Of a stretch of DNA of 51,617 nt, positions 6,920-24,491 are shown piece after piece (within the stretch, counting starts at the first letter, position 1; each line of letters begins with the position of its first letter). The DNA lies in IMG/VR virus record IMGVR_UViG_3300043410_001422, positions 1 through 51,617 of that record; one strand, given 5' to 3'. The notes below the pieces were generated by a model, which was not told where the DNA came from, did not search any database, and was given only the letters and a program-made list of their open reading frames with translations. The DNA comes from a virus. Position numbers and translations under genes: made by a program.

Positions 6920-7322
6920 ATATTACCTTTGCCCATTTACTTGCATCTTGTTCTGTTACTCTTATATTATATTTTTCTGGTATTACGAATGCTTTATTTG
7001 TATCTTCGTATTTACTTTTATCAATAGTATCAACCCATATTGTATAATGAGCAGAAAAATTTTCTCTCATAACGGGCAATGGACACACAAAATCACATAT
7101 AACATACTGACTGTACATTTTATCTGCTAATTCTTTCATGCGAATACTTTGTCTAATCCTTCCCTCATCGCTGAAATCCCAATCATCATATGCTTGGCGA
7201 ACTAGATCAGCATTAAACCATTCAACGGTTTTGCCTTTATCTTGCATTACATTTCTAAGTTCTTCTGCTAGTGTTGTTTTTCCAGCACCGGGTAATCCCA
7301 TAATTAAAATACGAAAAGTCAT
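6900..7322 (-). CDS. Small P-loop kinase, adenylylsulfate-kinase-like
   Basis: A 140-aa P-loop kinase. The Walker A motif GLPGAGKT is at residues 9-16. FNADLVRQ and the following DFSDEGRIRQSIR resemble the substrate segment of APS kinase (DGDxVR ... FSxxDRxxNIRR), although the canonical DGD is NAD here. It is clearly shorter than bacterial CysC (about 200 aa), so part of the lid and dimer region may be missing. It starts in an ATGA overlap with the carbamoyltransferase stop. It may make PAPS for sulfation, but since the core is reduced it may instead phosphorylate another small molecule for the nucleotidyltransferase encoded next. No sulfotransferase was seen in this window. Confidence 0.68.
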   Translation of the reverse strand: MTFRILIMGLPGAGKTTLAEELRNVMQDKGKTVEWFNADLVRQAYDDWDFSDEGRIRQSIRMKELADKMYSQYVICDFVCPLPVMRENFSAHYTIWVDTIDKSKYEDTNKAFVIPEKYNIRVTEQDASKWAKVIYEQISH

Positions 7323-8842
7323 GAAAACACCTTTACTCCATATTTTTGTTCAAACCTATCTGCATCACTACGGTCATTTACCATGGGTTCGCCTTTAATG
7401 TTAAGACTAGTATTAAGCAACATAGGGCAATCAGTCATCATAAACCATTTCTCTAAGAGTTCTCTGATTCCCGAACCGTCTTTTGGAACCGTTTGTACTC
7501 TACTTGTCCCATCAACATGACAGATAGCAGGAAACAAGTCAGGATGCTTACAATGAGCGACTGACTGCATATAACGGCTATTATTCCACCCACTGTAGAA
7601 ATCAAAGTACTGATCAGCCATCTCTTCCAATATGACAGGGGCGAAAGGTCTGAACTTTTGTCTGCGTTTAATTTCATTTACACGATCCTTTATATCAGCG
7701 CCACGAGGGTCTGCTAGTAAACTGCGATTACCTAACGCACGAGGTCCAAATTCAGCTTTACCATTAGCCACACCCACAATGCCACTAGACAGTAATTCAT
7801 CCAAAAGGGAGTTGACAGGATATGGTCCTGGAATAAGATGCCCCAAAAAAGCGTTGGTCCAATTAATCCGTTTACTATAAGCCAATGCTGCGGCACCAAG
7901 ACTACTACCAGCGTCGCCAGGATTAGGCATAATCCATATATTTCCAAAATATTCACCAAGACTCCTATTTGCTAAACAATTGAGTGCTACTCCACCCATA
8001 TATACTAAATTATCACTCCATTTATAATCGCTTGCACGACGCATTACATTGTAAACCAATCGTTCTAATAATTTTTGTGCAGCCGCTGCTATATCTGAAT
8101 CATGAACATCTTGAAAAAAATTTTTTTCTACCCCAATATGTAAATTATGTTTAAATGTAGATTCCCATTCATTCAATACTAAATGATCTTGCATAGAAGC
8201 TGTGCAATAAGAAGTACCATATGCGCTCATTCCCATCAAAATATATTCATCTTCGTTTGGTTTTAATCCTACTCGTTGAGTCATTGCAGAATAAAATAAA
8301 CCTATACTGTGTGGATATTTTTGACTCCATAATTTTTTATAATGAGCAATACCACGACTATCATATTTTGCACCATAGATACTAATTGTATCCCATTCAC
8401 CTATTGCATCAATAACTACAACTGTTGCACGATCATAAGGACTTGTTTGAAATCCCGCAGCCGCATGACTTAAATGATGATCATATGAATTAATATAAAC
8501 TCCATTCAAATTGTGCCACGGATCAATTATATTATTTTCTTGTATTACTCGTAGATGTTTACCAAGCTCTCGTCGTAAACATTGTTCGGTGTTTATTGCA
8601 CCCCAATCAATTCCTTCACCAGAGTACCATTTACGTAATTGTTTTTTGAATGGGCTTTCGTAATATGCAATTGCGCCTATGTGATATTTTTCAATATCAG
8701 CAATAAGACCAGAACTTATATGTGCGTCATTTTTTATTTTGCTATAACGCTCACTATGCCCTGCAAATAATATATCACCTTGTGTATTAATTACACTGAT
8801 TGCAGCATCATGATATCCAGCCGATACGCCTAATATGTTCAT
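7319..8842 (-). CDS. NodU/CmcH-family O-carbamoyltransferase
   Basis: A 507-aa carbamoyltransferase of the NodU/CmcH/TobZ type. These use carbamoyl phosphate and ATP, through a carbamoyl-adenylate, to carbamoylate a hydroxyl group, usually on a sugar. The N-terminal Kae1-like domain shows GVSAGYHDAA (residues 5-14), the metal/histidine cluster YDHHLSHAA (120-128) and VVVIDAIGEWDT (141-152). The C-terminal domain has GKAEFGPRALGNRS and the FRPFAPVI motif that follow in this family. It is a little shorter than NodU (about 560-600) but appears complete. It overlaps the SGNH gene upstream by 35 bases. In this setting it probably decorates a glycan made by the neighbouring genes; a modified nucleotide is an alternative. 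Confidence 0.92.
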   Translation of the reverse strand: MNILGVSAGYHDAAISVINTQGDILFAGHSERYSKIKNDAHISSGLIADIEKYHIGAIAYYESPFKKQLRKWYSGEGIDWGAINTEQCLRRELGKHLRVIQENNIIDPWHNLNGVYINSYDHHLSHAAAGFQTSPYDRATVVVIDAIGEWDTISIYGAKYDSRGIAHYKKLWSQKYPHSIGLFYSAMTQRVGLKPNEDEYILMGMSAYGTSYCTASMQDHLVLNEWESTFKHNLHIGVEKNFFQDVHDSDIAAAAQKLLERLVYNVMRRASDYKWSDNLVYMGGVALNCLANRSLGEYFGNIWIMPNPGDAGSSLGAAALAYSKRINWTNAFLGHLIPGPYPVNSLLDELLSSGIVGVANGKAEFGPRALGNRSLLADPRGADIKDRVNEIKRRQKFRPFAPVILEEMADQYFDFYSGWNNSRYMQSVAHCKHPDLFPAICHVDGTSRVQTVPKDGSGIRELLEKWFMMTDCPMLLNTSLNIKGEPMVNDRSDADRFEQKYGVKVFS

Positions 8843-9487: not shown

Positions 9488-10657
9488 TTATTTTGAACTA
9501 TAATCATATCCAGGTTTCATCATATCTATCTGCCTCTGTTTATAATTCATATCTGTCCAACAATATTCGTATGTTTTAGATATATCACCAATCTCAATTT
9601 TATAAATGTCTAAATGATTTGATAATATATTCCAAACATCAAACTCACTAATAGTGCCAAAACTTTCACGAATAGTAACCTGACCTAATGGCAAATAACC
9701 CAAACTTAAATTCACATCTGTTGGATCATAGTTATTTTTACGAAGCCACTCAGTAAAATTATCCATTAAATTATTATGCCATTCCCTAACACCACCATAC
9801 ACTATGTCTTTGCCCCATTCCACATCAAACTCACCACTATAATATTTTAATTCAGTTATTGCTTCGCAGATGGCATCAGTTAAAACTGGAGCACCTTCGT
9901 CCCTAAAAACTTCAAATAATGTCTTGCCAATCTGAGTCCAGTGCATATACACCCCACCAAACACCCGATCATAACCATTGATCGCAAATCCTGTTCTATG
10001 TTCAGGTTTTAATTCATGTCTTGTTGCATGAAGAAACGTAGTAATTTGGCTTGGGCGGATCCATTCTGGTGCAGTAATTTGTTTACGTTGACTTAAACAT
10101 AAACTTTCCATTTCGTGACATATATTATTCAATTGTCTGATTGCATATTTTGTTTCGTAATCTGCCAATTTATAATAATCACTAAGATTGGCTACTGTTC
10201 CTTGTAAAATTTCAAAATGATTATGAAGTCTGTTCATAACACCATGCTTAACAAACAATCCATATTCATATTCACCAAGAGGGTATTCATCCCCAAAACG
10301 AACAGTGTCTGGTGTAAAATAGTCTTCAATCAAATAAGAGGATAATCCAGCACGTTGCCACACTCCACTCATATTAAACAAATTTATTTTATAAACTGCT
10401 GCATTTAACTCATTACACAAATAAGTTAAATTTCTTGCTGTTCTAGGAAATCCCATAAAACAGAAATTTTTTTCTATTAGCTTGCCACTAATCAATTCTT
10501 GTTTAAGTGCTGCTACCCAATCTAAAGCTAACAAACTATCATTTGGCTCTATGGTATAATCAATTAAATCATTTTTATCTAATGGATTACGCAATACTAC
10601 TTTAATTGATTGATTGCCACCACTCATATACATCTCGTCTCTTTGAAAGTATTTCAT
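9488..10657 (-). CDS. Unrecognised 389-aa protein within the radical SAM cluster
   Basis: I do not recognise a family. The protein is soluble in appearance, has no signal peptide or membrane segment, and is rich in aromatic residues and histidine (for example NRLHNHFE, HATRHELKPEHR), which could bind a metal. The fifth to tenth strands cannot be assigned from sequence. The ATG at 10657 overlaps the upstream radical SAM gene by 56 bases; in-frame ATGs at 10633 and 10627 would shorten the overlap to about 30, and the former has a purine-rich stretch (AAAGAGACGAG) just before it. Its place immediately after two radical SAM genes makes it a candidate partner or substrate-handling protein, which is inference only. 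Confidence 0.75.
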   Translation of the reverse strand: MKYFQRDEMYMSGGNQSIKVVLRNPLDKNDLIDYTIEPNDSLLALDWVAALKQELISGKLIEKNFCFMGFPRTARNLTYLCNELNAAVYKINLFNMSGVWQRAGLSSYLIEDYFTPDTVRFGDEYPLGEYEYGLFVKHGVMNRLHNHFEILQGTVANLSDYYKLADYETKYAIRQLNNICHEMESLCLSQRKQITAPEWIRPSQITTFLHATRHELKPEHRTGFAINGYDRVFGGVYMHWTQIGKTLFEVFRDEGAPVLTDAICEAITELKYYSGEFDVEWGKDIVYGGVREWHNNLMDNFTEWLRKNNYDPTDVNLSLGYLPLGQVTIRESFGTISEFDVWNILSNHLDIYKIEIGDISKTYEYCWTDMNYKQRQIDMMKPGYDYSSK

Positions 10658-11897
10658 CCATAGTGATAGATTGACTACGGATAGCTTCTAATTGTAACAC
10701 ACGAGCCTTACCTCGTGCAATACCTTTTTGATATTCTTCTTCGCCATATTGCTCTTGAAAAGTAGGGCGTGTTTTAAGTTGGACTAAGATATCCTTTAAC
10801 GGACCGGGAACTTCGGCTAGCAATATTTCATCTACCCAACGATCTAATATCTCTCTGGGCAGGGCTAAAGGTGACATAACTATGTCCGGGCTAAAACTAA
10901 AGACAACCTTGGCCAGGATGTCAACGCCCAAATCGTTACCTAACTGCTGTATATTTTCTACTTCAAACATACCCGGAAGGGTAAGTGTGAAGTCTAATCT
11001 CATTTGTCTTCTGTGCGTAGAGACTCTAATTCCTTCTTTAAAGTTTTCAAGCCATTCTTCGTATTTAAGACCTGTTCTAACATACTCTCCAATTCTTTTC
11101 GTACCATCAATGCTTGCACATATTTGCCAATCACGTAACCCAGAAAGAATGTCCCTAAAGAGATTAATACCTCTATAGTTGGTTCTGCTGAGATTTGTAT
11201 TATATCTTGCGTAGACACGTTTTCCATCTCCCAATTCAATAATTCGCTGCATATATTTCCAATGTTGTTCGTACATGAGTGGTTCTCCCCCAACCCAATA
11301 TACTTCTTCAACACGGTGTTCTTCTACTGCGTTTGCAAACTCTGTTTCAATTTGAGTGTTTTGGAAATCTTCAATTTGTTTTTTGATTTCAGGTTTCATC
11401 CAAAAATTTTTTGGATTAGTCCAATCAATCATATTGTGCTGTTGTTGTTCACTTTCCCAACTACTAGAAAGCATGTCGCCACACATACGACATTTGAAAT
11501 TGCAAAGATTACTAAATCTGTAATCCCATGAAACAGGTTTCATAGTTGTATACCCTGTTTCGTCAGTAGTTTCTAATATCTGATTGTACTTATGTTGAAA
11601 CAAATTGTTAAAATAATCTCTGTAAACGCTAGTATTCAGCAGTTTATCATTACATACTTCACACTCTGGTAAGGTTTCTCCGGCAAGCATTCGTCGGCGA
11701 ACCGATTTCATATGCTCATTATTCCAATGTTCGTCCAAAGTAATAGGTATGTATACTCCAGTGCCTTTGCTGGTATCAATATACTGCTGAAAATTTTGTG
11801 CAGGTTCCCTACTGGCACAGCACATTCTGCGTTCTGTCTGTGGACTTAGGTATGTGTGTGTCCACAGTGCCATGCATAGAGTTTCAGGTTTTTGCAA
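10602..11897 (-). CDS. Radical SAM enzyme with N-terminal Twitch/SPASM-like motif (1)
   Basis: A 431-aa radical SAM protein. The core cluster motif is LCNFKCRMC (C132, C136, C139), and VGGEPL at 203-207 is the SAM-binding GGE motif. Ahead of the core is a cysteine set C8, C26, C27, C79 and C82 in a frame like ETLCMALW...P...CC...CEVC, which resembles the SPASM/Twitch pattern normally found after the core. The start is TTG at 11897: AGGA lies seven bases before it, and the resulting N-terminus lines up with the start of the 403-aa paralogue at 16000 (KTICML). It overlaps the upstream radical SAM gene by 14 bases. Such enzymes use a 5'-deoxyadenosyl radical to modify peptides, sugars or small molecules; the substrate is unknown. 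Confidence 0.9.
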   Translation of the reverse strand: MQKPETLCMALWTHTYLSPQTERRMCCASREPAQNFQQYIDTSKGTGVYIPITLDEHWNNEHMKSVRRRMLAGETLPECEVCNDKLLNTSVYRDYFNNLFQHKYNQILETTDETGYTTMKPVSWDYRFSNLCNFKCRMCGDMLSSSWESEQQQHNMIDWTNPKNFWMKPEIKKQIEDFQNTQIETEFANAVEEHRVEEVYWVGGEPLMYEQHWKYMQRIIELGDGKRVYARYNTNLSRTNYRGINLFRDILSGLRDWQICASIDGTKRIGEYVRTGLKYEEWLENFKEGIRVSTHRRQMRLDFTLTLPGMFEVENIQQLGNDLGVDILAKVVFSFSPDIVMSPLALPREILDRWVDEILLAEVPGPLKDILVQLKTRPTFQEQYGEEEYQKGIARGKARVLQLEAIRSQSITMDEILSKRRDVYEWWQSIN

Positions 11898-13149
11898 TTT
11901 CTTGTCCTGCCATTTTAAAATACTTTACTAAATCTTCGTAATCTGGATGAGATGGATTGTATATATTTTTATCTTCAAATATAGTCTGATCCCATGTTCC
12001 CCAATTCCACATTTTTTGTAAATTAAATTTTGGTATTCCCAATTCTTTGCATAATTTGACAAAAAGTGGAATTTCTTTATAGTTGTCTTTTTGAACTACA
12101 AAATCTGCAGTGAGTTGTGTAGAAAACTTATTACGTTTTATAACATCCCTAACCCACACAGTATTGTCCAATAATTTTTCCCAACTACCATTTACACGGA
12201 TGCTTTTGTAGGTTTCCTTTGATGCTGCATCAAAACTTATTCTTAATTCACTAATGTATGGCAATAAATCATTCACAAGTTTACCTTTTTGTTGAAGTAA
12301 ACTGCCATTTGTTTGAATTACATTTTGAATGTTAATTTTTCCTGTGCTTATAATATAACTCATCAATTGCAAATATGGTTCGCTCATAAACGGTTCACCA
12401 CCAGCCCATCGTATTGTCACTAACTGATCTTGAATTTTATCAATAATTTGATGAGAAATTTTTTCTACTAAGGAGTTGTTGATTGGTCTAATAATGTAGT
12501 CTTCATTCCAGTTAATGACTTCAGTTCTACAACTTGGACATTTAAAATTACAAGTGTAATCAAAATCAAATATGATATTTTTTGGTATACTGTTTACTAT
12601 TAAGTTGTTGCTATACTCATACTTTAAAGGAGTTAAGTCAGTTGGGTTTTGTGTATATGTTGATTTGTCTATTTTTCCAAAAAACCCACATATACTATGA
12701 TTACAATAATAATACCTATTAGATAAAATTTCTTGTCGTATTTTTTGTGCAGATTCAGAATTTAAAATATCAAATATATTTTCAGTTTCTAAAATATTTC
12801 CAACAAATATTGGTATCCAACTGGGAGATTCGCAAATAAACACATTACCATTTTGATTTATACCAATGGTATCCCAAGGGGCAGTACAGGCGTGGACACT
12901 GTTTAAATTTTTGTTAAAAAATACTTGTTTCTGTCTTGTTTGATTTGCAATGGATAGTTCGTTAGTTTTTGGAGAAACTACATTCTGATAATTTTGTTTC
13001 ATCTTATCAACAAAAAGATCAAGTTCTTCTTGAATAGACTCACTCAACGAATACTTGTTGGTTATGAATTTATCATAAGAAGGCCAGTCTGCTCCTTTAA
13101 ATGAATTATATGTAGATTCATCAATAAAATTTTTATAATTGTCTAACAT
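11884..13149 (-). CDS. Radical SAM enzyme, divergent member (2)
   Basis: A 421-aa radical SAM protein counted from ATG 13149. The core motif TCNFKCPSC gives C200, C204 and C207, and WAGGEPFM has GGEP at 250-253. The N-terminal auxiliary motif is nearer to classical SPASM than in the other five: C88-x-x-PW, C106 after a glycine turn (NGNVFIC), then GNILE...IFDILNS...C149 and C154. It has a long helical N-terminus of about 80 residues before this. A GTG at 13194 would add 15 residues but has no ribosome site and lengthens the overlap with the mini-DegT gene from 17 to 62 bases. Expected role is radical-based modification; partner and substrate are unknown. Confidence 0.88.
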   Translation of the reverse strand: MLDNYKNFIDESTYNSFKGADWPSYDKFITNKYSLSESIQEELDLFVDKMKQNYQNVVSPKTNELSIANQTRQKQVFFNKNLNSVHACTAPWDTIGINQNGNVFICESPSWIPIFVGNILETENIFDILNSESAQKIRQEILSNRYYYCNHSICGFFGKIDKSTYTQNPTDLTPLKYEYSNNLIVNSIPKNIIFDFDYTCNFKCPSCRTEVINWNEDYIIRPINNSLVEKISHQIIDKIQDQLVTIRWAGGEPFMSEPYLQLMSYIISTGKINIQNVIQTNGSLLQQKGKLVNDLLPYISELRISFDAASKETYKSIRVNGSWEKLLDNTVWVRDVIKRNKFSTQLTADFVVQKDNYKEIPLFVKLCKELGIPKFNLQKMWNWGTWDQTIFEDKNIYNPSHPDYEDLVKYFKMAGQEIAKT

Positions 13150-13783
13150 TTTTGTCTTTAAAAACTGGTAATTTTGGTAAGTATGGATAATCACTTTGAG
13201 TCCACACTCTGGGTTCTTTTTTTACTGCCTCATCAAATTTGTCTATACCAAGTTGTGCGACTTCTGGTGTCATGTAATAATGATACCCAACAGTAGATAT
13301 ATCTTGACTCATCCACGGACTGGTTCTGACTCTACCATCACAACTCATTTTTATTAATTCATCATATGCATCTCTATCGTCAGTTAGTATCATGCCTCCC
13401 TTGGCAAGACTGAGGTGTTTTTGAAATTGGAAGGAAAGACACATAAAAGTGTTAGGGATATACCCATCACGTTTCCAATACACTGCAGCATCAATGATAG
13501 GAGTATTGCCAATAAAGTAATAATTAGTCCAATTATAATTTTCAAAATCCCATCCTAAATTAAGTTTTTCAAATGTAAAAGGGATTGAAATATAGGTTTG
13601 TGCAGGACAAGATACCCAATCTGGTTTTAATAATCTGAGACACAATTCAACTGCATGAGTACAACAATCAACAGATACAGCATATTTTGCTCCATAGAAC
13701 TCAGCAACAGTACGTTCAAATTCATCCAATATATTCCATGGATTTCTGGTCACCCTATCCAATAAACGAAATGGTTCTGTCAT
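13133..13783 (-). CDS. Shortened DegT-family aminotransferase-like protein
   Basis: A 216-aa protein equal to the large PLP-binding domain of DegT aminotransferases and lacking most of the C-terminal small domain (family length about 370). The active-site elements are kept: IIDAAVYW with D98, and SFQFQKHLSLAKGGM with the PLP lysine K122. The usual GT of SGTxA is replaced by C41-T-H-A. Downstream the frame ends cleanly before the next radical SAM gene, and I saw no frameshifted remainder, because the following DNA codes for the radical SAM protein. It could be a minimal enzyme, a dehydratase-like PLP protein, or a heterodimer partner of the full-length enzyme at 1329. It overlaps the SGNH-like gene upstream by 29 bases. 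Confidence 0.75.
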   Translation of the reverse strand: MTEPFRLLDRVTRNPWNILDEFERTVAEFYGAKYAVSVDCCTHAVELCLRLLKPDWVSCPAQTYISIPFTFEKLNLGWDFENYNWTNYYFIGNTPIIDAAVYWKRDGYIPNTFMCLSFQFQKHLSLAKGGMILTDDRDAYDELIKMSCDGRVRTSPWMSQDISTVGYHYYMTPEVAQLGIDKFDEAVKKEPRVWTQSDYPYLPKLPVFKDKNVRQL

Positions 13784-14426
13784 AGTAATATTGTGCTATT
13801 TGTTGATTAACATTTATATCAGGTATATGAAAATATGGTCTATACTCTCTAGTATCAGCATAGTCCCATAAATTTATATTGCTAAAATTATCTTTAAATT
13901 TTAAAAAATATTGTTCGGGGTTTCCACCAAATGATTTGTGCTCAAATCCACCTTTATCAAAAATAAATTTTATTTTACTATCTGATAAATTTTGCAACGT
14001 GTTTTCAATTATACATTTATTTTCATATATTGCCAAGTTTAAATCAAAAAAATTGGCGTAATATTTTTTTAATATATCTTTTTGATTATCATTAAACTCC
14101 GTTGTATCAAAAGAATGCATTGAATAACAAACTAATTTTTTATTTTGAAATTGTTCGTGGAGATTTTCATCTGTATTTGAATTCATAGAAACTTGATTTC
14201 TAGTGCAACTTGTTCCAAAACAGATTATCAAATCTGGCATTTTTGAAATGGCATGATTTACCTGTATGTTTATTAATAAATTAGATGCACAAACGGATGA
14301 TAAATTTACTACTGTGGCAATGCCATTTAATTTTTGTGAAAATATCTCTACCCAACATATTCCCTTATAATCTGGGTCTGGCGTACTAAAACTATCCCCA
14401 CAAATGTAAACATTTTTTAATTTCAT
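13755..14426 (-). CDS. Degenerate SGNH-hydrolase-like protein
   Basis: A 223-aa protein that begins like an SGNH hydrolase: YICGDSFSTP carries the block I serine (S12), NLSSVCASN resembles block II, and FGTSCTRNQ block III with N77. The C-terminal block normally holding D-x-x-H reads HIPDINVNQQIA, where the expected histidine appears to be asparagine, so catalysis is uncertain. No signal peptide is seen. It lies between the Rossmann reductase and the mini-DegT gene and overlaps both (35 and 29 bases). It differs from the SGNH-like protein at 8808 and is not a recent duplicate. Confidence 0.5.
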   Translation of the reverse strand: MKLKNVYICGDSFSTPDPDYKGICWVEIFSQKLNGIATVVNLSSVCASNLLINIQVNHAISKMPDLIICFGTSCTRNQVSMNSNTDENLHEQFQNKKLVCYSMHSFDTTEFNDNQKDILKKYYANFFDLNLAIYENKCIIENTLQNLSDSKIKFIFDKGGFEHKSFGGNPEQYFLKFKDNFSNINLWDYADTREYRPYFHIPDINVNQQIAQYYYDRTISFIG

Positions 14427-15072
14427 TAAATATTTCCTGTTTTGAGTATATGTATGGTGTTAGATTGTATTTTCTTGGTTCATTGTTTGATGTTATTTTT
14501 AATGATGGAAAAAATACTTCTGCTATTTCGCCAGTACTAATTGGATCAGAAACTAAATTTATTTCTTTTATTGAATTATTTACCGCATTGTTTATATCAA
14601 AACAAAGATTGCTCAATGGGTACCATTGCAAAAACGATAAAGGATTTGTATCATTCAAATATTGTTTATTCACCAAATCATACAACACATTTTTCTTTAT
14701 ATTTTCACCAACTAACGTGCTCAGTCGTAATATATGATATTCCTTAAATTGTTTTTTGATATGGTTTTCTAGTTTTAATCTGTTTTTTCCATATATAGAT
14801 TCGGGGTAAGAAACTACATCAACTGTGCTAATTAATACAAACCTAGTTGCTTGTATTTTATCTATATCTTCTATTAACTTATCAATTAACTTTTCATCAA
14901 TGTATAAATTGTTATTTGCAATAATACGATTTGATGAAGGAGCGGCACAAACTACCATTTCAAATGTTTTACCAAACACTTCGTGTATGTTGGACGAATC
15001 ACAACTATAGTCAAAATTTATGTTATTCGCCAATGAAGTGCCAATCGTCCCCTTACCAATCAATAATTTCAT
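14392..15072 (-). CDS. Small Rossmann-fold sugar reductase/epimerase-like protein
   Basis: A 226-aa protein of the extended SDR type, close in layout to dTDP-4-keto-rhamnose reductases. The N-terminal NAD(P) motif is GKGTIG (residues 6-11), VVCAAPSS is the strand-4 region, and FVLISTVDVVS carries the catalytic serine/threonine. The YxxxK pair reads YGKNR, so lysine is replaced by arginine unless the following KLE lysine takes the role. It is shorter than the family (about 280-300). Its ATG overlaps the stop of the glycosyltransferase upstream (TAATG). It probably reduces or epimerises a sugar intermediate, or is an inactive relative; position among sugar genes supports the first. Confidence 0.62.
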   Translation of the reverse strand: MKLLIGKGTIGTSLANNINFDYSCDSSNIHEVFGKTFEMVVCAAPSSNRIIANNNLYIDEKLIDKLIEDIDKIQATRFVLISTVDVVSYPESIYGKNRLKLENHIKKQFKEYHILRLSTLVGENIKKNVLYDLVNKQYLNDTNPLSFLQWYPLSNLCFDINNAVNNSIKEINLVSDPISTGEIAEVFFPSLKITSNNEPRKYNLTPYIYSKQEIFNEIKKCLHLWG

Positions 15073-16007
15073 TATTCTATAAAATTTAAAATGTCGCCCA
15101 CAATTTCATCATTAATTCTTTTCACGACCTTTTGTTGGTCAAAAAATAAATTATTATTATGTTTCAATTTTTGTTCAGTTATCCTATCATTAAAAACTAT
15201 AGGATTATTAATAATATCATTTACCACACAAGCAATTGCACTTAATCTACTATCTGAATCTACTATATCATCATATGATTCATCTATAATATGATCCATA
15301 GTTTCAAATCCTTCACTCTTTAAATATTTAAGTGTTCCAACAGACCCCCAAACAAGAAATGGGTGATAAAATGCAATCGGTTTGAATAACTTTTCTGATA
15401 CAAAAGTTGGTGAATCAATCATTGTTTCTACCGCAATTGAAAATCTTGTTGAATCATACCACCATGGATTCATATATCGTTCCCAATTAATACTAGAAGG
15501 AAACGAATTAAAATCTTTATCACCTGCAATTTGAATGCCACGTTTGGAATAACTGTATAATGATTTATCTAAATGATGCGACAACTTTTCAAATATAGCA
15601 TCACGATGTGGTTTAACTAAATTCATCATCATTAAAAATTGATGCTCAATATTTTTGTTTGGTTTATACTCATGGTACCTCAAATGTCTATACCATAAAC
15701 TTTCGTTATACCTACACCAATTTTGATTTTTTAATGTAAGAACCCCATCATCTACATGACTTCCAGTATAGACATCATTATCCCATAAATGTTCAATTAC
15801 TAATTTATATCCATTATTAATCAATTGCTGGCACCATTCTTCCGCTACATTCATATAATTGACAACCACAAAAGAATCATGTGGGGAATGTTTATCAGTG
15901 TGTTCAATGTATTTTACATCAAACGTTTCTTTTAAGATTGGCATAATCCATGGCCAATCAAAATTGGAATAATCAGTAAAAGACAACAATAAATTTGGTT
16001 TACTCAT
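15072..16007 (-). CDS. Exostosin/fucosyltransferase-like glycosyltransferase, second copy
   Basis: A 311-aa glycosyltransferase related to those at 4838 and 21225. Shared motifs are the N-x-x-x-P-H-R pattern (MMNLVKPHRDA), SEKLFKPIAFYHPFLVWG (about 204-221), LKSEGFETM and IDESYDDI. The start is set at ATG 16007, where ATGAGTAA overlaps the stop of the radical SAM gene upstream. An ATG at 16025 would add six residues with a longer overlap. A similar ATGAGTAA junction is used at 21232. The protein ends where the homology ends, unlike the copy at 4838 that has an extra tail. Donor and acceptor are unknown. Confidence 0.75.
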   Translation of the reverse strand: MSKPNLLLSFTDYSNFDWPWIMPILKETFDVKYIEHTDKHSPHDSFVVVNYMNVAEEWCQQLINNGYKLVIEHLWDNDVYTGSHVDDGVLTLKNQNWCRYNESLWYRHLRYHEYKPNKNIEHQFLMMMNLVKPHRDAIFEKLSHHLDKSLYSYSKRGIQIAGDKDFNSFPSSINWERYMNPWWYDSTRFSIAVETMIDSPTFVSEKLFKPIAFYHPFLVWGSVGTLKYLKSEGFETMDHIIDESYDDIVDSDSRLSAIACVVNDIINNPIVFNDRITEQKLKHNNNLFFDQQKVVKRINDEIVGDILNFIE

Positions 16008-17211
16008 ATCCCATTGCCAATGCAATTTCTAAATGTGTGTCTTTAAAATTCTGATTACGATAGGTGTCGGCACGTTGCATTTTTTCTAAAAACTCTTTAC
16101 CATCACTACCAGTTCCATTTTCAATAAATTTAATAATAGAATCAATTTCTCGTTGATAGAAATCAGATGTCCAAAATGTAGTCTTTAATTTATTCAATAC
16201 TAATTCCTGTGCTGCTGGAGTCATCTTTTGAATACTCATATGATCAGGACTATGCATCATATTGAAATAGATATTATCAAACCCCTTGCGATCAGCCCAC
16301 GCTAATAGTTCATCTAGGTAATACACATTTTGAATATTCACAGTAAAGCAAAGTTGTGTAGTAATATTATCATTGTGCTGTTTTAACGAACTAATCCATA
16401 TGATGTTATCATTTACCTCTTCCCATTTAGCACCATAACGTTCATATTCAAACCGCTTGCGTACATTGTCAACACTAAATGCAATATCTACACGACCAAA
16501 ATGTTGCCATAGATAGGATTCATCTGGTTCTATAGTGCCATTTGTATTATAGTGTATATCAATATTTTTGCTGTAACCTTGTTCAACAGCAAACTTTAAT
16601 AAATCAAAATGTTCTTGAATTAGGAATGGTTCTCCCCCAGTGAATTCAAAATACTTAATGTTTGGTAATAATTTTTTTAAATTATCCCAAAAATTTGTGT
16701 CGGGATTTCTAGGCCATGCACCTTGTTTTAACCATTGATATGCAATATGTTGTTTTTTATCAAATTCTTTGGGCATATATTTGAGTTCTTCATCTGCCCA
16801 CTTACTACTAGACCATGATCCACAAATACGACATTTAAGATTACAAATGTTTCCTAGTTTTAAATCAAGAAACCATAATTGATCAGGATCATCGTTTGCC
16901 CAATCTACTTGAGTATATAATTCTTTTAATCTAACACGACTATGCATACGTTTGCTGGTTCTGTCTGCAGCTTCTTCATCCCAACATAGTTTACACGTAG
17001 CAGGTTTTTCTCCTGCACGAAACTGTCTGCGAAGATTTTGCATATACTCACTATGATAGATTGTTTCTAGGTTGTCTTTATTCAAGTCAAATTTAGTACC
17101 ATCTTCTTTGGTAATCTCTTCACGTGCGAGGCAACAAGGACGAGCAGTGCCTATAGGACTAGTCTCAATACTAATCCATGGTAACATGCATATTGTTTTA
17201 GGTAATTCCAT
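16000..17211 (-). CDS. Radical SAM enzyme with N-terminal Twitch/SPASM-like motif (3)
   Basis: A 403-aa radical SAM protein, the most compact of the set. The N-terminal cysteine set is C8 (TICMLPW), C26-C27 (ARPCCLA), then C73 and C76 (CKLCW). Between them is the SPASM-like segment ETIYHSEYMQNLRR. The core motif ICNLKCRIC gives C123, C127 and C130, with TGGEPF at 191-196. SSSKW after the core is shared with the neighbours. Its ATG lies 14 bases inside the end of the upstream radical SAM gene, the same overlap as at 11884/11897. The cysteine arrangement predicts two iron-sulfur clusters. The substrate is unknown. Confidence 0.92.
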   Translation of the reverse strand: MELPKTICMLPWISIETSPIGTARPCCLAREEITKEDGTKFDLNKDNLETIYHSEYMQNLRRQFRAGEKPATCKLCWDEEAADRTSKRMHSRVRLKELYTQVDWANDDPDQLWFLDLKLGNICNLKCRICGSWSSSKWADEELKYMPKEFDKKQHIAYQWLKQGAWPRNPDTNFWDNLKKLLPNIKYFEFTGGEPFLIQEHFDLLKFAVEQGYSKNIDIHYNTNGTIEPDESYLWQHFGRVDIAFSVDNVRKRFEYERYGAKWEEVNDNIIWISSLKQHNDNITTQLCFTVNIQNVYYLDELLAWADRKGFDNIYFNMMHSPDHMSIQKMTPAAQELVLNKLKTTFWTSDFYQREIDSIIKFIENGTGSDGKEFLEKMQRADTYRNQNFKDTHLEIALAMGYE

Positions 17212-18517
17212 TTAGTTCAGGGAACACTTTCCAAAAATTTTCTTCTCGTGCAACATCTAATTTATTTGTGTGATCAACAAAAGTTTTCCATTTAATACTT
17301 GCATTATTTGATTTCATTAAACTAATTAAACTCTTATATCCAGATGTAGCTCGTTGTAATTTATCTTGTGGGGTAAGCCATTCTAGATGTTTCTCATACG
17401 CAGGGATTACTACTTCATTTTTAAATTTTTCTGGTAGTATATCCACACGGTACCATTCTGGGCTTTGGCAAATATTAATATTCCAATCTTTTGCGTTAAT
17501 TAACCCCAACTCAGTCCACTCTTTATGAAAGTCTAATACATGTAATACATTCATTACACTTACAGTGGAACTTACATAAAAATCTACGTGAGGAACTTCT
17601 TCTATCATTCGTTTACGATTTGATAGAGTTTGTTCCCAATTAGTTCCCTTGCGCATTAACTCTGCACGTTTACCACTAGCATCTAGACTAGCACCGACAC
17701 TGACATTTTTAAAATGTTTCCAATAATCAAATACGTGTTTGTCTTTATATCTTAGTTCACTGAAATTTGTATTGTATTGAATACGTATATCTGTTTTTCC
17801 CAATTCAATTAATTTTTCTAACAAAAAATAGTGTTCCTTCATTATTAAAGGCTCACCTCCTGCGAAATAAACTTGTTCCAGATGGGGAATATGCGGGAGC
17901 ATCTGTTCAAGCATAGCATCTTCATCTCCTGCAGTGTATTCAACCCTAGACATATCACGACCCAACACATCAGGCTTACGATTGTACAACTTAACATGAT
18001 CATTGTACCAATTACTACTGAATATAGGACCGCAGGTACGACAACTGAAATTACAGAGATTACTAAATCTAACATCCCAATACCTTATTTTAAATTCTGG
18101 GTGAGTTCCATCCTGTTGAGTTTTATCTACTTCAGATATGTGATGCCCATAATTTCTATTACTATCATTACGCATACTAAATGCACCATGTTTTTCTTGC
18201 TCGTAGCATTTGGTGCACTCTTTACATGGTTTATCTTGCATCATGTTTTGTCGCATTATACGATATGGTTCTTGATTCCAAACTTCTTCCATCGTATTTT
18301 TACGCAAATCGCCTAATGGGTGCCAATATTCGCTGAGACAACAAGGATATGCACGACCATCAGGAAATGCATGCATGTGAACCCATGGCATCATACAAAA
18401 ATGGTCACTCTCAACAAGCCTATTCCAGTGTTCCTCTGTTAAATTTTCTTTTTCAATAAAATAGGGGGCACGTTCATTATATACATACCCTTTATTATAA
18501 AATCCTTTTACACTCAT
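17198..18517 (-). CDS. Radical SAM enzyme with N-terminal Twitch/SPASM-like motif (4)
   Basis: A 439-aa radical SAM protein with the clearest SPASM-like N-terminus in the set. C41-M-M-P-W is followed by PDGRAYPCC (C59, C60), LGDLRKNTMEEVWN, and C98-x-x-C101-x-x-C104. This is the wording usually seen in the C-terminal SPASM domain of PqqE-type peptide maturases, but here it comes before the core. The core LCNFSCRTC gives C155, C159 and C162, and AGGEPL is at 219-224. It starts in an ATGA overlap with the stop of the 455-aa radical SAM gene. The close match to the peptide-maturase motif makes a peptide or protein substrate plausible, not shown. Confidence 0.92.
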   Translation of the reverse strand: MSVKGFYNKGYVYNERAPYFIEKENLTEEHWNRLVESDHFCMMPWVHMHAFPDGRAYPCCLSEYWHPLGDLRKNTMEEVWNQEPYRIMRQNMMQDKPCKECTKCYEQEKHGAFSMRNDSNRNYGHHISEVDKTQQDGTHPEFKIRYWDVRFSNLCNFSCRTCGPIFSSNWYNDHVKLYNRKPDVLGRDMSRVEYTAGDEDAMLEQMLPHIPHLEQVYFAGGEPLIMKEHYFLLEKLIELGKTDIRIQYNTNFSELRYKDKHVFDYWKHFKNVSVGASLDASGKRAELMRKGTNWEQTLSNRKRMIEEVPHVDFYVSSTVSVMNVLHVLDFHKEWTELGLINAKDWNINICQSPEWYRVDILPEKFKNEVVIPAYEKHLEWLTPQDKLQRATSGYKSLISLMKSNNASIKWKTFVDHTNKLDVAREENFWKVFPELNGIT

Positions 18518-19881
18518 ATATTATTATACCAATCTGCTAGTGTAGGAAATGTTTCTACAAAATTTTTATTGCGCCTTTGATCATATTGTGTATAGAATTG
18601 TTTAAAATCTCGTTGTAACATATGTTGTTCGGCTGCACCACTGTGTGGAGTTTTAACTACGTCAAGATAATCAATTAAACGTTGTGTATGATTACGTTCG
18701 TGTTCATGCAGCCATTCATTATCATTTGCTGCTAACCATGCTTCTAAATTATTTTTGTGTCTTGTTCTATGTTCATCGGGTAGTACCAATGGACTTTGAA
18801 ATGAAGGGAATCTAAGTATGTTTAAAGTGAAATTTGGAAACTCTTTACCATAACACATCTTCCATTGTATTATACAGTCTAAGAACTCTGTTAAACTTTC
18901 TAAGCATAGTGCGTTAATGGTGCACATAATGTGTAATCCACGCATTTTTACTACACTGTAATTGTCACATATAAGTTCTATACTATTAGCCCAATCGTCC
19001 CAAACCAATCCGTCTCTAATATACTCTGCATGTAACCCGATAGATTCGTTACTAGTGTATAGGTCAATGGGTGCGTCCACACTGTTAAAAAGGCGATCAA
19101 TATCAACTTGTGTTCCTAAATTAGAATTAATTGCTAGTCGTGTATTACTTTTACCCTTATTTTCTTTGAACCAGTCAAGTAGTTTCCAAGTGTATCCCGA
19201 CATGAGTGGTTCCCCACCTGTAATACGCAATTCATTTAACGTTTTATAGAGGTCTGATTCCCACCACTTGAAGAATGCCTCCACATACGGATTAGTTTCA
19301 CCGAATTTATACAATTGAGCACTATCATGAGGGTGAGTAAAATGATTCCTACCATCTGACTCCAAGTTAATGTAGGGTCCATTATTGTTGATGTCCCGTA
19401 CCCAAGTAGAACTGAATGCAGGGTTGCAATAACTGCAAGCAAACTGACAAGTACGATCAAAACTGATTTCAAGAGTGCGAAGATTGATATCTTCGTTTGA
19501 GTATGTGTTGAATGCATTATTTAAATCCTCATCTGAATAAATTACGGTTTTGTAAACTCTATCACTAATATTGTCTCTACCAATATCTTCAATTTTCCAA
19601 CAATACTCACACCCCGCTGGTCTTTCTCCACGTTGCATTTGAGCACGTTCTAATTTTTTTTGTGCAGTATTATGTATACCCTTTGGATTGACAAGAATAT
19701 CCAGTTCAGGTATTTTATGCGGCAGTGGATGATGACAACTAGTAGTCATACCACTACCCAACCATATGGTTGCATTATACCATTTTGCTCCACAAAATGA
19801 TTCTGATTTAATATCAATCACTCGGTGTTTATATTCTAAATCTGTTTCGTTATTAATTTTGGGCATAATATCTACATTCAT
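18514..19881 (-). CDS. Radical SAM enzyme, SCHHP subfamily (5)
   Basis: A 455-aa radical SAM protein that pairs with the next gene upstream. Its N-terminal auxiliary motif differs from copies 1, 3 and 4: C30-G-A-K-W, then a single C49 in TSCHHP, and C91-x-x-C94-W. The core is TCQFACSYC (C145, C149, C152), followed by SSTW and TGGEPL at 221-226. A histidine pair replaces the second cysteine of the CC seen in the other subfamily and might ligate the cluster. The ATG at 19881 overlaps the upstream gene by 29 bases; an ATG at 19866 is a possible shorter start. Confidence 0.9.
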   Translation of the reverse strand: MNVDIMPKINNETDLEYKHRVIDIKSESFCGAKWYNATIWLGSGMTTSCHHPLPHKIPELDILVNPKGIHNTAQKKLERAQMQRGERPAGCEYCWKIEDIGRDNISDRVYKTVIYSDEDLNNAFNTYSNEDINLRTLEISFDRTCQFACSYCNPAFSSTWVRDINNNGPYINLESDGRNHFTHPHDSAQLYKFGETNPYVEAFFKWWESDLYKTLNELRITGGEPLMSGYTWKLLDWFKENKGKSNTRLAINSNLGTQVDIDRLFNSVDAPIDLYTSNESIGLHAEYIRDGLVWDDWANSIELICDNYSVVKMRGLHIMCTINALCLESLTEFLDCIIQWKMCYGKEFPNFTLNILRFPSFQSPLVLPDEHRTRHKNNLEAWLAANDNEWLHEHERNHTQRLIDYLDVVKTPHSGAAEQHMLQRDFKQFYTQYDQRRNKNFVETFPTLADWYNNI

Positions 19882-21232
19882 CCCAGAATTCTTTCATTTC
19901 TGGAAATGTTGTCAAAAAGTCTGTTTCTCTGCGTTTATCGTGTTCGTTAAAGAAACGATAAAAGTCAGCACGTTGTAGTTTAACATATTCTGGTTGCAAT
20001 TTCCAACCTTCTTTCATCCAATCTAAGACACGTTGCAATCTTTGTACTTCGTAGTCCTTAAACCCTTGAAATGGTTTGTCTGGTGTTTCTAAATTGGCAT
20101 TCATCCAATCCACCACGTCTTGTAATCGTTTGGTATATACAGGAGGAAGTATCTGTAGGCTTTGCCAAGTTGGTTGGCGTAATATTGGTGTGTCAAACCA
20201 AACTCGCTGATAAGTGGTGCTATGAATTTTTCTCAAATCCAATATCATTTCTAACAGTCTTTTTAATCCCAAAATATTTAAATTACTCATAGTGATGATA
20301 AAAGTTAAACTGTTACGATATGGTATTTCTTCTAAAAAATGATCTGCCCTTTTAATAACCTTCCAAAATTCCATACCATTACGAATATATTCAGCCTGAT
20401 CTCCCCATGAATCTAAACTAACATACTGCATAAAATGTTCTATATTAGTATTGCATAATTGTTTTACACACTCAAGATATTTGTCCCATAAAATTTCATT
20501 AACACTAAAGTTACTTGTAACATCAATATGTAAATCTGGTTTAGGAAATGCTAACACATAATCAAATACCTTATAAGTGTTTTTATCTAATAGTGGTTCA
20601 CCACCAGTCATGCGAAAATGTTTTAATTTTGGATATAGACTCGGCCACCACTCCCAAAAAGCGTCCACGTATGGATTATCCTCTCTAACAGGAATCGGTC
20701 GTCTAATACCCGAAAAATAAGAAGGGTCATTATGAAGATTACTAGTGGGATATGCTCCATACCTAGTAATTTCATCAGACCAAGTGCTACTAAACTGAGG
20801 GCTGCAATAACTGCATTTAAGGTTACAAGCGTGATTAAAATTGACTTCCACGTAACTTGGTATTTCATCTTCTTCTCCAGTACTGTTAACTATACGATCA
20901 AAATGTTCTGCTGCCCAAGGCTCACCGCTGCGATAATGTCTGTCACTTAGGTTGCCAAGATCTTCCTGTGTCCAGCAGTAACTACATTCCTGTGGACGTT
21001 CATTGCGTAACATAATTTTACGCTGTTCTTTTTTATGGGGAGTATTATGTAAGGCACCAGGATTGTCTTTTAACAATGACACATCTATTTCGTGTAGAGG
21101 TGGATGATAACAACTGTTGGTTAAACCCGTGGGCAGATGTAGGCTTACTTGCTGCCACTTAGCAAGACACAATCCCTCACCTAATTTTTCTTTCATCTGC
21201 TCTGCGGCAGACATAAAATTACTTTTACTCAT
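19853..21232 (-). CDS. Radical SAM enzyme, SCYHP subfamily (6)
   Basis: A 459-aa paralogue of the 455-aa enzyme and the first radical SAM gene in the direction of transcription. C22-L-A-K-W, C41 in NSCYHP, C83-x-x-C86-W, core ACNLKCSYC (C136, C140, C143), SSTW, and TGGEPL near 209-214. The two paralogues also share NPYVxAFxxWW before the GGEP motif and QAEYIRNG / HAEYIRDG after it. The ATG at 21232 forms an ATGAGTAA overlap with the upstream glycosyltransferase stop. A TTG at 21238 would add two residues and is less likely. The pair probably arose by tandem duplication and may act on related substrates or together. Confidence 0.9.
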   Translation of the reverse strand: MSKSNFMSAAEQMKEKLGEGLCLAKWQQVSLHLPTGLTNSCYHPPLHEIDVSLLKDNPGALHNTPHKKEQRKIMLRNERPQECSYCWTQEDLGNLSDRHYRSGEPWAAEHFDRIVNSTGEEDEIPSYVEVNFNHACNLKCSYCSPQFSSTWSDEITRYGAYPTSNLHNDPSYFSGIRRPIPVREDNPYVDAFWEWWPSLYPKLKHFRMTGGEPLLDKNTYKVFDYVLAFPKPDLHIDVTSNFSVNEILWDKYLECVKQLCNTNIEHFMQYVSLDSWGDQAEYIRNGMEFWKVIKRADHFLEEIPYRNSLTFIITMSNLNILGLKRLLEMILDLRKIHSTTYQRVWFDTPILRQPTWQSLQILPPVYTKRLQDVVDWMNANLETPDKPFQGFKDYEVQRLQRVLDWMKEGWKLQPEYVKLQRADFYRFFNEHDKRRETDFLTTFPEMKEFWDECRYYAQN

Positions 21233-22328
21233 TGCCAACAGTCAAGTAATTTATATTTGTTATGCGATCATAATCTATATTACTATTATAATTTTTAACA
21301 TTGCTCAAATGAACTTTTTTATTATGTTCGCAAATAAATTTAGTTTTATCATATAAATCTTTTGGAGTATATGTTTTTATAATGTACTCACAAGAATCAG
21401 CAATTCTTGAAATTTTTTCACCCAATCTTTCATGGGGAATATCATCCCACGACTCATCCCAAAATTCACCAAACGTTTTAATATCACATTTGTGCATATT
21501 CCCATACATATGAGGTGAACCTATCACGATAAATGGTTGCCCTAAAACCAATAACTTTTCTAATTTTTCAGAAAGAACAAAAATGTTATTAGTGGTAGTG
21601 CTCATGCACACTATTTCTAACACAAAATTATTATTCAACCAACTTTTTTCGGTATAATCTATATGAAATGTTTCTTTAACTTCTCCAGAAACTTCATTGC
21701 CTCTATTTTTGTAATCCCTTCCATTTTTACCAATTGATGACACAATCTCAAAAATATATTCATGGGATACATTCATTATTTTACACGCCAAATCAATGCA
21801 ACTTTCTCTCCAATGCTCATCTGCCATTAGATCATTCTTGTCAAACCCCAATCTACAATCGGTATAATTAAGTAACCCACGTTTGTAAAATTCCACCAAT
21901 ATACAAAAACGATGAACATCTGGTCTAGACAAATACAATCCAAACATTTTTTTATTTTCATCCCAACTAATTGTTTCTGGCATTGACTGTATAAATTTTT
22001 TTTCGTCATTTATGTATCCATTGTCCATCAAAAATTCAAAATACTCAGGATCAATGTAATGGTCAATAATATTGTCACTATAAAATTGGACAGAAGAAAA
22101 ATACTTTTTTAGTTCAGAATGTAATTCTTTATAATTTAGATAATCTATATTAGAATGGTGGTTGTCTACAAAATTTATCCTCAATGGATGTAATAAGTTT
22201 TCTAAAGTTGCTTTTTTGAATACTTCTGAAATAATCCTATCAGAATAATAATGTTTTGTTTCGCCAGGATATGCCATTGAGCGAATTTGATTTATTATCC
22301 AACTATTCCAGATATCAACAACTAACAT
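21225..22328 (-). CDS. Exostosin/fucosyltransferase-like glycosyltransferase, third copy
   Basis: A 367-aa protein related to the enzymes at 4838 and 15072 but more diverged. The acceptor-side motif is GLYLSRPDVHRF and the donor-side motif is SEKLEKLLVLGQPFIVIG (about 253-270), followed by IKTFGEFWDESWDD. The K-P of FKP in the other two is K-L here. The N-terminus is rich in acidic and aromatic residues with no signal peptide. Its ATG overlaps the stop of the acetyltransferase by one base. As the last non-radical-SAM gene before four consecutive radical SAM genes, it links sugar transfer to that group. Confidence 0.7.
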   Translation of the reverse strand: MLVVDIWNSWIINQIRSMAYPGETKHYYSDRIISEVFKKATLENLLHPLRINFVDNHHSNIDYLNYKELHSELKKYFSSVQFYSDNIIDHYIDPEYFEFLMDNGYINDEKKFIQSMPETISWDENKKMFGLYLSRPDVHRFCILVEFYKRGLLNYTDCRLGFDKNDLMADEHWRESCIDLACKIMNVSHEYIFEIVSSIGKNGRDYKNRGNEVSGEVKETFHIDYTEKSWLNNNFVLEIVCMSTTTNNIFVLSEKLEKLLVLGQPFIVIGSPHMYGNMHKCDIKTFGEFWDESWDDIPHERLGEKISRIADSCEYIIKTYTPKDLYDKTKFICEHNKKVHLSNVKNYNSNIDYDRITNINYLTVGNE

Positions 22329-22942
22329 TATTGATTTCCACCAAATCGTCTAGCAGGACTTCCAATATAAACACCTGACTCTAATGCATCTTTCGTAAGT
22401 GTGCTTATTGCATTCACCATAATGTTATCACCGACAGTTAGTTTATTAAGTGCTGCAGATTTAAAATTGAACACACAGTTATCACCAATCGTTGTTCTAC
22501 CAGCAATCATAGTTCCCGAATGAAGCATTACATTATTTCCAATTTTAACATGGTGTGATATTAAACAATATGTTTCTACTGCACAAAAATCACCTATCGT
22601 TGCACCCATTAAAATAGTACTAAATGGGGCAATAAATGATCCTCTACCAATAACAGATTTAATATCTTTTGTGTAGCACACGACTGAATCATGCATGTAC
22701 CTAACACAATCTAAATCTAATTGATTAATTTCATTTATAACTTTCATTCGCATTTCAAGGTCTTGATTAAATGCCACCCCATATTGATAATCATGTTTAT
22801 TTTGAATTGAAAAAAATTCTTCTGGTGGTATTATATGCATCTTACTTTGTAATTCTTGTCCTACAAAAAAAGATGCTTCCTGTGTTAGTGTAGATTCAGG
22901 AAACCCAACCATCATCATTTCTTTACTATTTGATACAAGCAT
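22328..22942 (-). CDS. NeuD/PglD-like hexapeptide acetyltransferase
   Basis: A 204-aa left-handed beta-helix acyltransferase of the NeuD/PglD/VioB type, which acetylates an amino group or hydroxyl on a nucleotide sugar using acetyl-CoA. The N-terminal about 90 residues form the family's small domain, although the usual Rossmann-like glycine motif is weak (MVGFPES). From residue 95 to 198 hexapeptide repeats are visible (IGRGSF, IGDFCA, IGNNVM, IGDNCV, VGDNIM). Catalytic histidine is probably H130 or H131 in LISHHVKIG. GSPARRF ends it as in the family. It pairs logically with the DegT aminotransferases, which supply amino sugars. Confidence 0.88.
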   Translation of the reverse strand: MLVSNSKEMMMVGFPESTLTQEASFFVGQELQSKMHIIPPEEFFSIQNKHDYQYGVAFNQDLEMRMKVINEINQLDLDCVRYMHDSVVCYTKDIKSVIGRGSFIAPFSTILMGATIGDFCAVETYCLISHHVKIGNNVMLHSGTMIAGRTTIGDNCVFNFKSAALNKLTVGDNIMVNAISTLTKDALESGVYIGSPARRFGGNQ

Positions 22943-23561: not shown

Positions 23562-24491
23562 TTACCAGCCTTCTAATCTTCTTATTACATCCATTTCTGA
23601 CATCATAATTTCACTATTACGTTGTCCATTAGAGTAATGATGTTTAAAAAATCTACTTTGTTCTGGAGTATACGTAACGATTGGGAGTCCCAATCTAACT
23701 TTTAATGCGTTTTCAATTCTTTCACAACCTTCTACTGGATTTTCTTTACTAAAACTATCCCATAATTTTTCTAGCATATCAAAGTCTTGTACGTAATGAT
23801 GATCCCATCCTTCTAACATAATCATATAAGTACCCAATCTTGCCCCATACATTGCCCAATAACCATGTTCTACATCAGCACCAACACTTTGCCATATACA
23901 TAAGTTATCATAGTTACGATTGTTTACACGTTCTTCAAATTCTTGTAATGTGGGTTTATGACCACGATCTAAACACATCTTGACACCTTCACGAAAGCCA
24001 GCCCTCCATGCTTGCTTGGGGCTTCCATTTGGATATGTAGTTGAATAACAATTATGCATAGCCGTATATTTTGGATCAAAGCAAAATTCAACTGATGTTT
24101 CTTCATCACCAAGGCTTGCTTCGTGTGTGCGCATGTTGTTTACAAAATCTTTAGTCCAACAACTTAACCCACCATTACCATATCTTAATCCATTAATAAC
24201 ATTACGTGCCTTCCACCTAAAAACGTGGTCATGATTCTTTTCGTCCAACGATAATTGTAGATTAAAAAACTCAGGGTCGGGTATATTATCTCCATCAATA
24301 AGAACGAATCGTTCTGTATCGCTTGCTGCGGCTGCTGCTTTGTGTGCTGCGTCAGATCCTTTAATACCATCCACCCTCTTTGCCCACGGTACCATGTTTT
24401 TAATCTTGATCCAAAACTCTTCTTTTTTAGGTTCATCATAAGTTAAAAATATACAATCTAAATCGGCTATATCAATTATTTGTGTATTCAT
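23562..24491 (-). CDS. GT-A-fold glycosyltransferase-like protein
   Basis: A 309-aa protein with a GT-A layout: a first strand DLDCIFLTYDEP, an alanine-rich helix (KAAAAASDT), then FVLIDGDNIPD, where D66-G-D68 is the metal-binding DxD. NGLRYGNGG (about 100-108) and AWRAGFREGV (161-170) follow. These last motifs are shared with the C-terminal unit of the 809-aa protein at 2410, which makes this the intact, probably catalytic, version of that module. It overlaps the 122-aa gene by 20 bases. The sugar donor is unknown. Confidence 0.7.
   Translation of the reverse strand: MNTQIIDIADLDCIFLTYDEPKKEEFWIKIKNMVPWAKRVDGIKGSDAAHKAAAAASDTERFVLIDGDNIPDPEFFNLQLSLDEKNHDHVFRWKARNVINGLRYGNGGLSCWTKDFVNNMRTHEASLGDEETSVEFCFDPKYTAMHNCYSTTYPNGSPKQAWRAGFREGVKMCLDRGHKPTLQEFEERVNNRNYDNLCIWQSVGADVEHGYWAMYGARLGTYMIMLEGWDHHYVQDFDMLEKLWDSFSKENPVEGCERIENALKVRLGLPIVTYTPEQSRFFKHHYSNGQRNSEIMMSEMDVIRRLEGW

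Follow-up and report, generated by a model that had tools for sequence, protein, structure and literature searches.

A large-phage genome fragment encodes five radical S-adenosylmethionine (SAM) enzymes, each with a predicted Twitch-type cysteine set placed ahead of the radical SAM core, in a conserved cassette of fixed gene order within the tail module. The fragment is virus record IMGVR_UViG_3300043410_001422, a stretch of 51,617 bases that we call the window throughout. In order of transcription the cassette consists of R6, R5, R4, R3 and R1 (Table 1), followed by a conserved partner gene at 9488-10657; a sixth and more divergent radical SAM gene, R2, is optional. The enzyme family itself is already known, without a recorded function, and what the five-gene set adds to it is the fixed order and the partner. 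We suggest below that the cassette and the sugar-type genes around it could act together on a surface glycan, and we weigh this against the idea that a virion protein is the substrate.

An initial annotation of this DNA had listed six open reading frames (ORFs) with a CxxxCxxC motif, a GGEP motif and a Twitch-type cysteine set in front of the core. All six were found, on the minus strand, with both motifs present in each, and they are confirmed as radical SAM enzymes with a predicted Twitch-type four-cysteine set before the core. The same annotation had suspected a known N-terminal-Twitch protein family, and this exists as the NCBIfam model NF033640 (N_Twi_rSAM, "twitch domain-containing radical SAM protein"; curated cut-off 170 bits). 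R1, R3, R4, R5 and R6 pass it with 285-403 bits over nearly the full model (E 1e-84 to 1e-120). R2 fails it at 99.8 bits (E 1.8e-28), and the notion of six like enzymes therefore has to be narrowed to five close family members and one divergent relative. The pre-core pattern reads C-x17/18-C, often C-C, and then CxxC, with CxxxxC in its place in R2. Four N-terminal and three core cysteines are invariant in R1, R3, R4, R5 and R6 (48-57 distinct orthologs per gene), and the spacing of the N-terminal set is kept by nearly all of the 51 divergent relatives or clusters that were sampled. R1 is the most conserved of the enzymes, 200 of its 428 positions being at least 97% identical among orthologs. 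Judged from these sequences, both the family assignment and the N-terminal cysteine observation are far beyond chance.

The Pfam Radical_SAM model (PF04055) scores above its gathering score in R1-R4, R6 reaches 28.0 against a required 29.5, and R5 has no match. Pfam SPASM is above its gathering score in R2, R3 and R4 only; it lies at residues 103-165 of R2 and 41-104 of R4, with Radical_SAM following at 214-357 and 150-315, respectively. For the other proteins, the N-terminal Twitch assignment draws on NF033640, on the invariant cysteines and on a profile comparison in which the N-terminal part of the family profile matched the Twitch domain of BtrN (E 5e-6). BtrN, a 2-deoxy-scyllo-inosamine dehydrogenase, has low sequence identity to the window enzymes and differs from them in that its Twitch domain is C-terminal. 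That the domain follows the core in BtrN and precedes it in NF033640 supports the view that it has been moved to the front. An AlphaFold model of R4 (predicted local distance difference test, pLDDT, 92.7; predicted template modelling score, pTM, 0.89) places the radical SAM core at residues 142-400, and this region aligns with many radical SAM structures (Z 10-13).

Viral loci were gathered with four anchors (R4, 9488-10657, R2 and R1), giving 207 loci, of which 134 with at least one core gene were retained after removal of copies; since only identical stretches served to detect copies, the counts that follow still include close relatives. The order R6-R5-R4-R3-R1 is complete in 95 of the 134 loci, the others hold a subset in the same order, and the order is never broken. 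Neighbouring frames are fused in a few loci (R6-R5 in L268; R4-R3 in L180, L219, L236 and L249). Insertions occur at every core junction: they are frequent between R3 and R1 (78/126 loci), where a glycosyltransferase, short-chain reductase and SGNH block recurs, and between R6 and R5 (49/104), and rare between R1 and 9488-10657 (4/124). The gene order has therefore been kept although the region is fluid. Median identity of the cassette enzymes to those of the window is 57-73%. Most cassettes lack R2, which is also found by itself in other places (L251, L252 and L254). R1, R3, R4, R5 and R6 thus form a conserved fixed-order cassette to which R2 is an optional addition. Relatives with the six genes scattered singly, without their neighbours, had been named in advance as the finding that would speak against a shared pathway; R2 behaves in this way and the other five do not, and the survey of other phages proposed at the same time turns up more than 100 related viral loci that keep the set. 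The fixed order strongly supports a joint function of several genes; the multi-step radical tailoring pathway put forward in the initial annotation is an inference beyond that. With so many related phages sharing the row, a tailoring line for sugars or proteins, encoded by the phage, is likely.

Two further observations concern these loci. Longer tblastn spans in R4 of some relatives had suggested an insert or intron; those checked are single open frames, approximately 25-50 residues longer. Between R6 and R5, three loci (L227:1844-2905, L231:1594-2658 and L237:1898-2923) encode proteins of approximately 350 residues with a conserved C-terminus, NYDECKNKCC.

The partner gene at 9488-10657 follows R1 in 96% of the 85 loci with enough sequence and was never seen without the enzymes in the loci fetched. 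From R6 through 9488-10657, neighbouring genes of the window share 1-62 bases, an operon-like arrangement. On the other side, 23562-24491 lies upstream of R6 in 41 of 41 loci and a pair of GT8-like genes (24815-25654 and 25641-26426) in 93%. A carbamoyltransferase gene (7319-8842) occurs in 87% of loci and 2410-4839 in 86%. A PDB profile search with the partner returned nothing usable, and its AlphaFold model (pLDDT 87.4) had no PDB match under E 0.001 in Foldseek. With VIA-align, 16 cyclophilin-type entries matched the model at Z 8.7-10 and the cyclophilin-like KslB at 7.3-7.6, the next rows lying at 6.0 or below; the predicted fold may be cyclophilin-like. It also has invariant His and Glu residues, several of them inside a helical insertion.

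A tree of 206 proteins places every core gene in a separate clade across phages and R2 in a clade of its own; some core-gene clades have bacterial sequences as close relatives. Recent tandem duplication of the enzymes is ruled out by this arrangement, and the paralogs appear to predate this phage group. Each of ten large related viral records has 7-14 NF033640 members, and family members also occur singly elsewhere in phage genomes of this group. The 352-kb record behind L069 has 14 family matches in approximately 20 kb; in L069 and L072 (352-kb and 116-kb viral contigs) some 11-14 members stand in tandem within 20 kb, two of them sharing one frame of 1035 residues. Bacterial assemblies hold relatives at 30-48% identity. 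Among the Bacteroidota sampled, 1 of 148 genomes, the seed genome, has a family member, and no member over the cut-off was present in 14 control genomes or in the 147 further Bacteroidota genomes. Three loci binned as Pelagibacter, Verrucomicrobia and Rickettsiales (L080, L081 and L150) are phage contigs, with phage tail genes beside the family members. When annotated phages were searched with the R4 protein, the only matches were in Vibrio phages K566 and K567 (24% identity) and in a marine fragment lacking annotation; the same search with 23562-24491 and 9488-10657 gave no match. In Vibrio phage K566 (L001), five further members of the family lie among hypothetical genes, a setting unlike that of the cassette.

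The right part of the window carries baseplate wedge proteins, a protein of 4,334 residues and tail-fibre-like genes; the cassette comes directly after the tail-fibre genes, and on the left side one minus-strand gene overlaps the next in a long row. The phage setting assumed in the initial annotation is thereby borne out. The closest matches of the baseplate wedge protein are in the jumbo phages Phosso and Atu_ph07, the SNUABM Erwinia group and 121Q, a likeness from which we infer that the fragment very likely derives from a large myovirus of the jumbo-phage kind.

Table 1. Genes of the radical SAM cassette and its neighbours in the window
Feature	Position	Strand	Basis and remarks
R6	19853-21238	-	N-terminal-Twitch radical SAM; core gene 1 of 5, transcribed first; NF033640 317 bits
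R5	18514-19881	-	N-terminal-Twitch radical SAM; core gene 2; NF033640 285 bits; Cys invariant
R4	17198-18517	-	N-terminal-Twitch radical SAM; core gene 3; NF033640 403 bits
R3	16000-17211	-	N-terminal-Twitch radical SAM; core gene 4; NF033640 340 bits; Cys invariant
R1	10602-11897	-	N-terminal-Twitch radical SAM; core gene 5; NF033640 289 bits
R2	11884-13194	-	Divergent accessory relative; about 100 extra N-terminal residues; NF033640 99.8 bits
Conserved partner without family assignment	9488-10657	-	Predicted cyclophilin-like barrel with helical insertion
Upstream neighbour of R6	23562-24491	-	Glycosyltransferase-like from reading of DGDN and YGNGG motifs only
GT8-like glycosyltransferase (glycogenin-like)	24815-25654	-	PDB profile with neighbouring copy: glycogenin, E 2e-4
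GT8-like glycosyltransferase, second copy	25641-26426	-	Joint PDB profile with 24815-25654
NodU/TobZ-type carbamoyltransferase	7319-8842	-	Pfam Carbam_trans_N and Carbam_trans_C; PHROG 1601
Large repeated protein	2410-4839	-	Last third resembles 23562-24491 by eye
Short pyridoxal phosphate (PLP) aminotransferase-like ORF, variable slot	13133-13783	-	Sequence reading only
SGNH-hydrolase-like ORF, variable slot	13755-14426	-	Sequence reading; recurs with 14392-15072 and 15072-16025
Short-chain reductase-like ORF, variable slot	14392-15072	-	Sequence reading; recurs
Glycosyltransferase-like ORF of 4838/21225 group, variable slot	15072-16025	-	Sequence reading; GT10-like TEKxFKP motif
Glycosyltransferase-like ORF, variable slot	21225-22328	-	Same 4838/15072 group by sequence reading; no Pfam match
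NeuD/PglB-type sugar acetyltransferase-like, variable slot	22328-22942	-	NCBIfam TIGR03570 98 bits, below cut-off 160.8
APS-kinase-like P-loop kinase	6900-7322	-	Pfam APS_kinase 42.9 bits
Cytidylyltransferase-like (HIGH-type) nucleotidyltransferase	6344-6919	-	Pfam CTP_transf_like 19.5 bits, just under cut-off 21
DegT-type sugar aminotransferase (PseC-like)	1305-2429	+	NCBIfam PseC 186 bits, below equivalog cut-off

Several of the genes that surround the cassette are sugar-related and would suit a surface-polysaccharide cluster. GT8-like, PseC-like and NeuD-like proteins were found, together with a dehydratase/epimerase-like protein from the NCBIfam search; the other transferases were recognised by reading only. 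A PDB profile search with the glycosyltransferase-like 4838/15072/21225 group gave no usable match. For 23562-24491, neither the Pfam nor the PDB profile search returned a match, and for 2410-4839 there was no Pfam family match and nothing usable in the PDB profile search.

We put at about even chances the proposal that the cassette is a surface-glycan tailoring line in which the five enzymes modify one sugar product. This product would be a sugar bound to a nucleotide or a surface glycan still under assembly. The five non-redundant enzymes would act on successive positions of it, while its synthesis and further decoration would fall to the surrounding glycosyltransferases, the carbamoyltransferase and the acyl-, amino- and kinase-type tailoring genes. 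Cleavage of SAM at the core [4Fe-4S] cluster of each enzyme would yield a 5'-deoxyadenosyl radical, and this would abstract hydrogen from one of the carbons of the sugar. Substrate binding or electron uptake would be the part of the N-terminal Twitch cluster, a role suggested for the C-terminal Twitch in the aminocyclitol dehydrogenase BtrN. Once finished, the product would either alter the surface of the host, keeping out rival phages, or form a coat on the virion.

Some bacterial relatives stand in a setting consistent with this. The closest chromosomal relative of R4 is in Candidatus Jettenia (L083; 44% identity, sister to the R4 clade), where the operon at L083:5329-12483 runs GT2, ABC2 membrane protein, Wzt with a Wzt_C domain, GT2, radical SAM, GT2; the R4 relative thus stands between glycosyltransferase (GT2) genes, right after Wzm-/Wzt-type O-antigen exporter genes. 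In L117 the relative is fused to an FkbM methyltransferase and lies beside GT2 genes, and in L158 it comes after GT2 and NTP_transf_5 genes. In L088, L085 and L117, bacterial family members are fused either with TPR repeats or with the domain of an FkbM methyltransferase. It is because a GT2-type gene lies within 5 kb in only 4 of 74 bacterial loci that we do not rate glycan tailoring more highly.

That count is one of several points that weigh against a sugar substrate. Most of the bacterial loci have no clear sugar context, and no partner dominated a Pfam tally of the neighbours of the bacterial homologs, GT2 appearing for 4 of 81 proteins. Two of the conserved neighbours, 23562-24491 and 2410-4839, are without a confirmed family. 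In fold searches with the R4 model, sugar-, nucleotide- and peptide-acting enzymes tie, the matches of the core to the sugar-related BlsE and DesII being level with those to peptide enzymes, so this search gives no decision on the substrate. Peptides are the more frequent substrates of SPASM/Twitch enzymes in general, and the cyclophilin fold, which the partner seems to share, is best known for peptide binding.

Cultured relatives point in the same direction. Agrobacterium phage Atu_ph07 and Sinorhizobium phage Phosso, both jumbo phages, have baseplate and tail genes homologous to those of the window, and in the slot after these tail genes both carry at least three radical SAM enzymes (L296, NC_042013.1 116908-123069, in Atu_ph07; L295, PV764938.1 185271-192395, in Phosso). 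Unlike the window enzymes, these have the ordinary order, with the core first and the cysteine set after it, and they do not match NF033640 at E 1e-10; one resembles the peptide maturases DynA, PapB and DarE. Between the radical SAM genes lies a protein of 296/306 residues that is 38% identical between the two phages, with Cys-His-Ser ends that are almost identical (CHSSCHASCHNSRSRR / CHTSCHASCHSSRSRR), and we regard it as a candidate radical SAM substrate on a virion-like protein. A 300-residue protein of Atu_ph07 matches the fold of 9488-10657 (Foldseek 3.4e-7). By its length this is probably gp166, the one ATG-started ORF of 300 residues in the scanned part of the genome, approximately 64 kb of which lies outside the scan; gp166 sits in the radical SAM cluster. 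Sequence homology between gp166 and 9488-10657 was not significant (hhalign E 0.06-0.4), and the pair is kept only as a fold-based lead.

These cassettes, together with the cyclophilin-like partner, make a virion-protein substrate a serious alternative, one that we consider possible if clearly short of probable. The enzymes would modify a polypeptide, most likely the adjoining virion or tail-fibre protein, with the partner presenting the chain; the chemistry could be side-chain epimerisation, cross-linking or C-methylation, possibly ahead of GT8-type O-glycosylation. The position of the cassette directly after tail-fibre genes fits this, as do the near-identical ends on otherwise divergent proteins in Atu_ph07 and Phosso, which would be expected of a modified tail. 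However, no convincing Cys-rich substrate tail and no short precursor gene were seen near the cassette in the window's own phage group among ORFs of at least 80 residues. In contrast to the conserved enzymes, the tail gene at 26786-27751 varies (median identity to the window 38% among the viral loci), which makes a variable adhesin improbable as the target. A glycan attached to a virion protein could reconcile the glycan and virion-protein readings. We would also advance, tentatively and with the odds rather against it, a phage assembly line in which at least five radical SAM enzymes act in fixed succession on one virion-borne substrate, be it a tail-fibre protein or the glycan on it.

It seems improbable that the product is small and diffusible, such as an antibiotic-like or signal compound for which the carbamoyl- and aminotransferases would serve as tailoring enzymes. 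Natural-product clusters do include carbamoyltransferase and PLP genes, and for a carbamoyltransferase-bearing cluster in a cyanophage a product of this kind has been put forward as one alternative (PMC7824862). Nevertheless, none of the genes examined was recognised as coding for a backbone-forming enzyme, and the tail-module location and GT8-like genes point to a surface role. We give still less credence to independent enzymes that each repair or hijack a different host process and owe their order to shared descent only. Single family members do occur elsewhere in these phage genomes, and in bacteria without operon partners, but the order is unbroken in 134 loci despite insertions at every junction, the genes overlap, and in no fetched locus does the partner stand without the enzymes. 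DNA modification was set aside because of the tail-module location of the cassette and because none of its neighbours was recognised as a base-modifying enzyme.

NF033640 is named in no paper found by a search of openly licensed articles, and the strict five-gene order, the partner and the copy number were not found described there either. Pelagimyophages carry radical SAM cassettes in a host-recognition region beside tail fibres and glycosyltransferases (PMC7029224), a likeness in setting among marine phages. The passages concerned name no family, domain order, copy number or function, and the window's group looks like a different and larger lineage with its strict five-gene order. Jumbo phages encode clusters that modify capsule or lipopolysaccharide (PMC7824862), and these share with the window glycosyltransferases, epimerase/dehydratases, HIGH nucleotidyltransferases and carbamoyltransferases; they differ in that no radical SAM enzymes are mentioned.

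In this widespread group of large phages the N-terminal-Twitch family is no stray gene: five members stand in strict order within the tail module and are conserved together. The enzyme set, its conserved partner and the sugar-type neighbours provide starting points for finding the substrate, and the related cassettes in two cultured jumbo phages open the way to a first test. To our knowledge no virus has been described with the virion chemistry that a radical SAM assembly line, if real, would provide. Should the cassette turn out to make a surface glycan or to modify the virion, radical chemistry would join the arms race between phages and their hosts.

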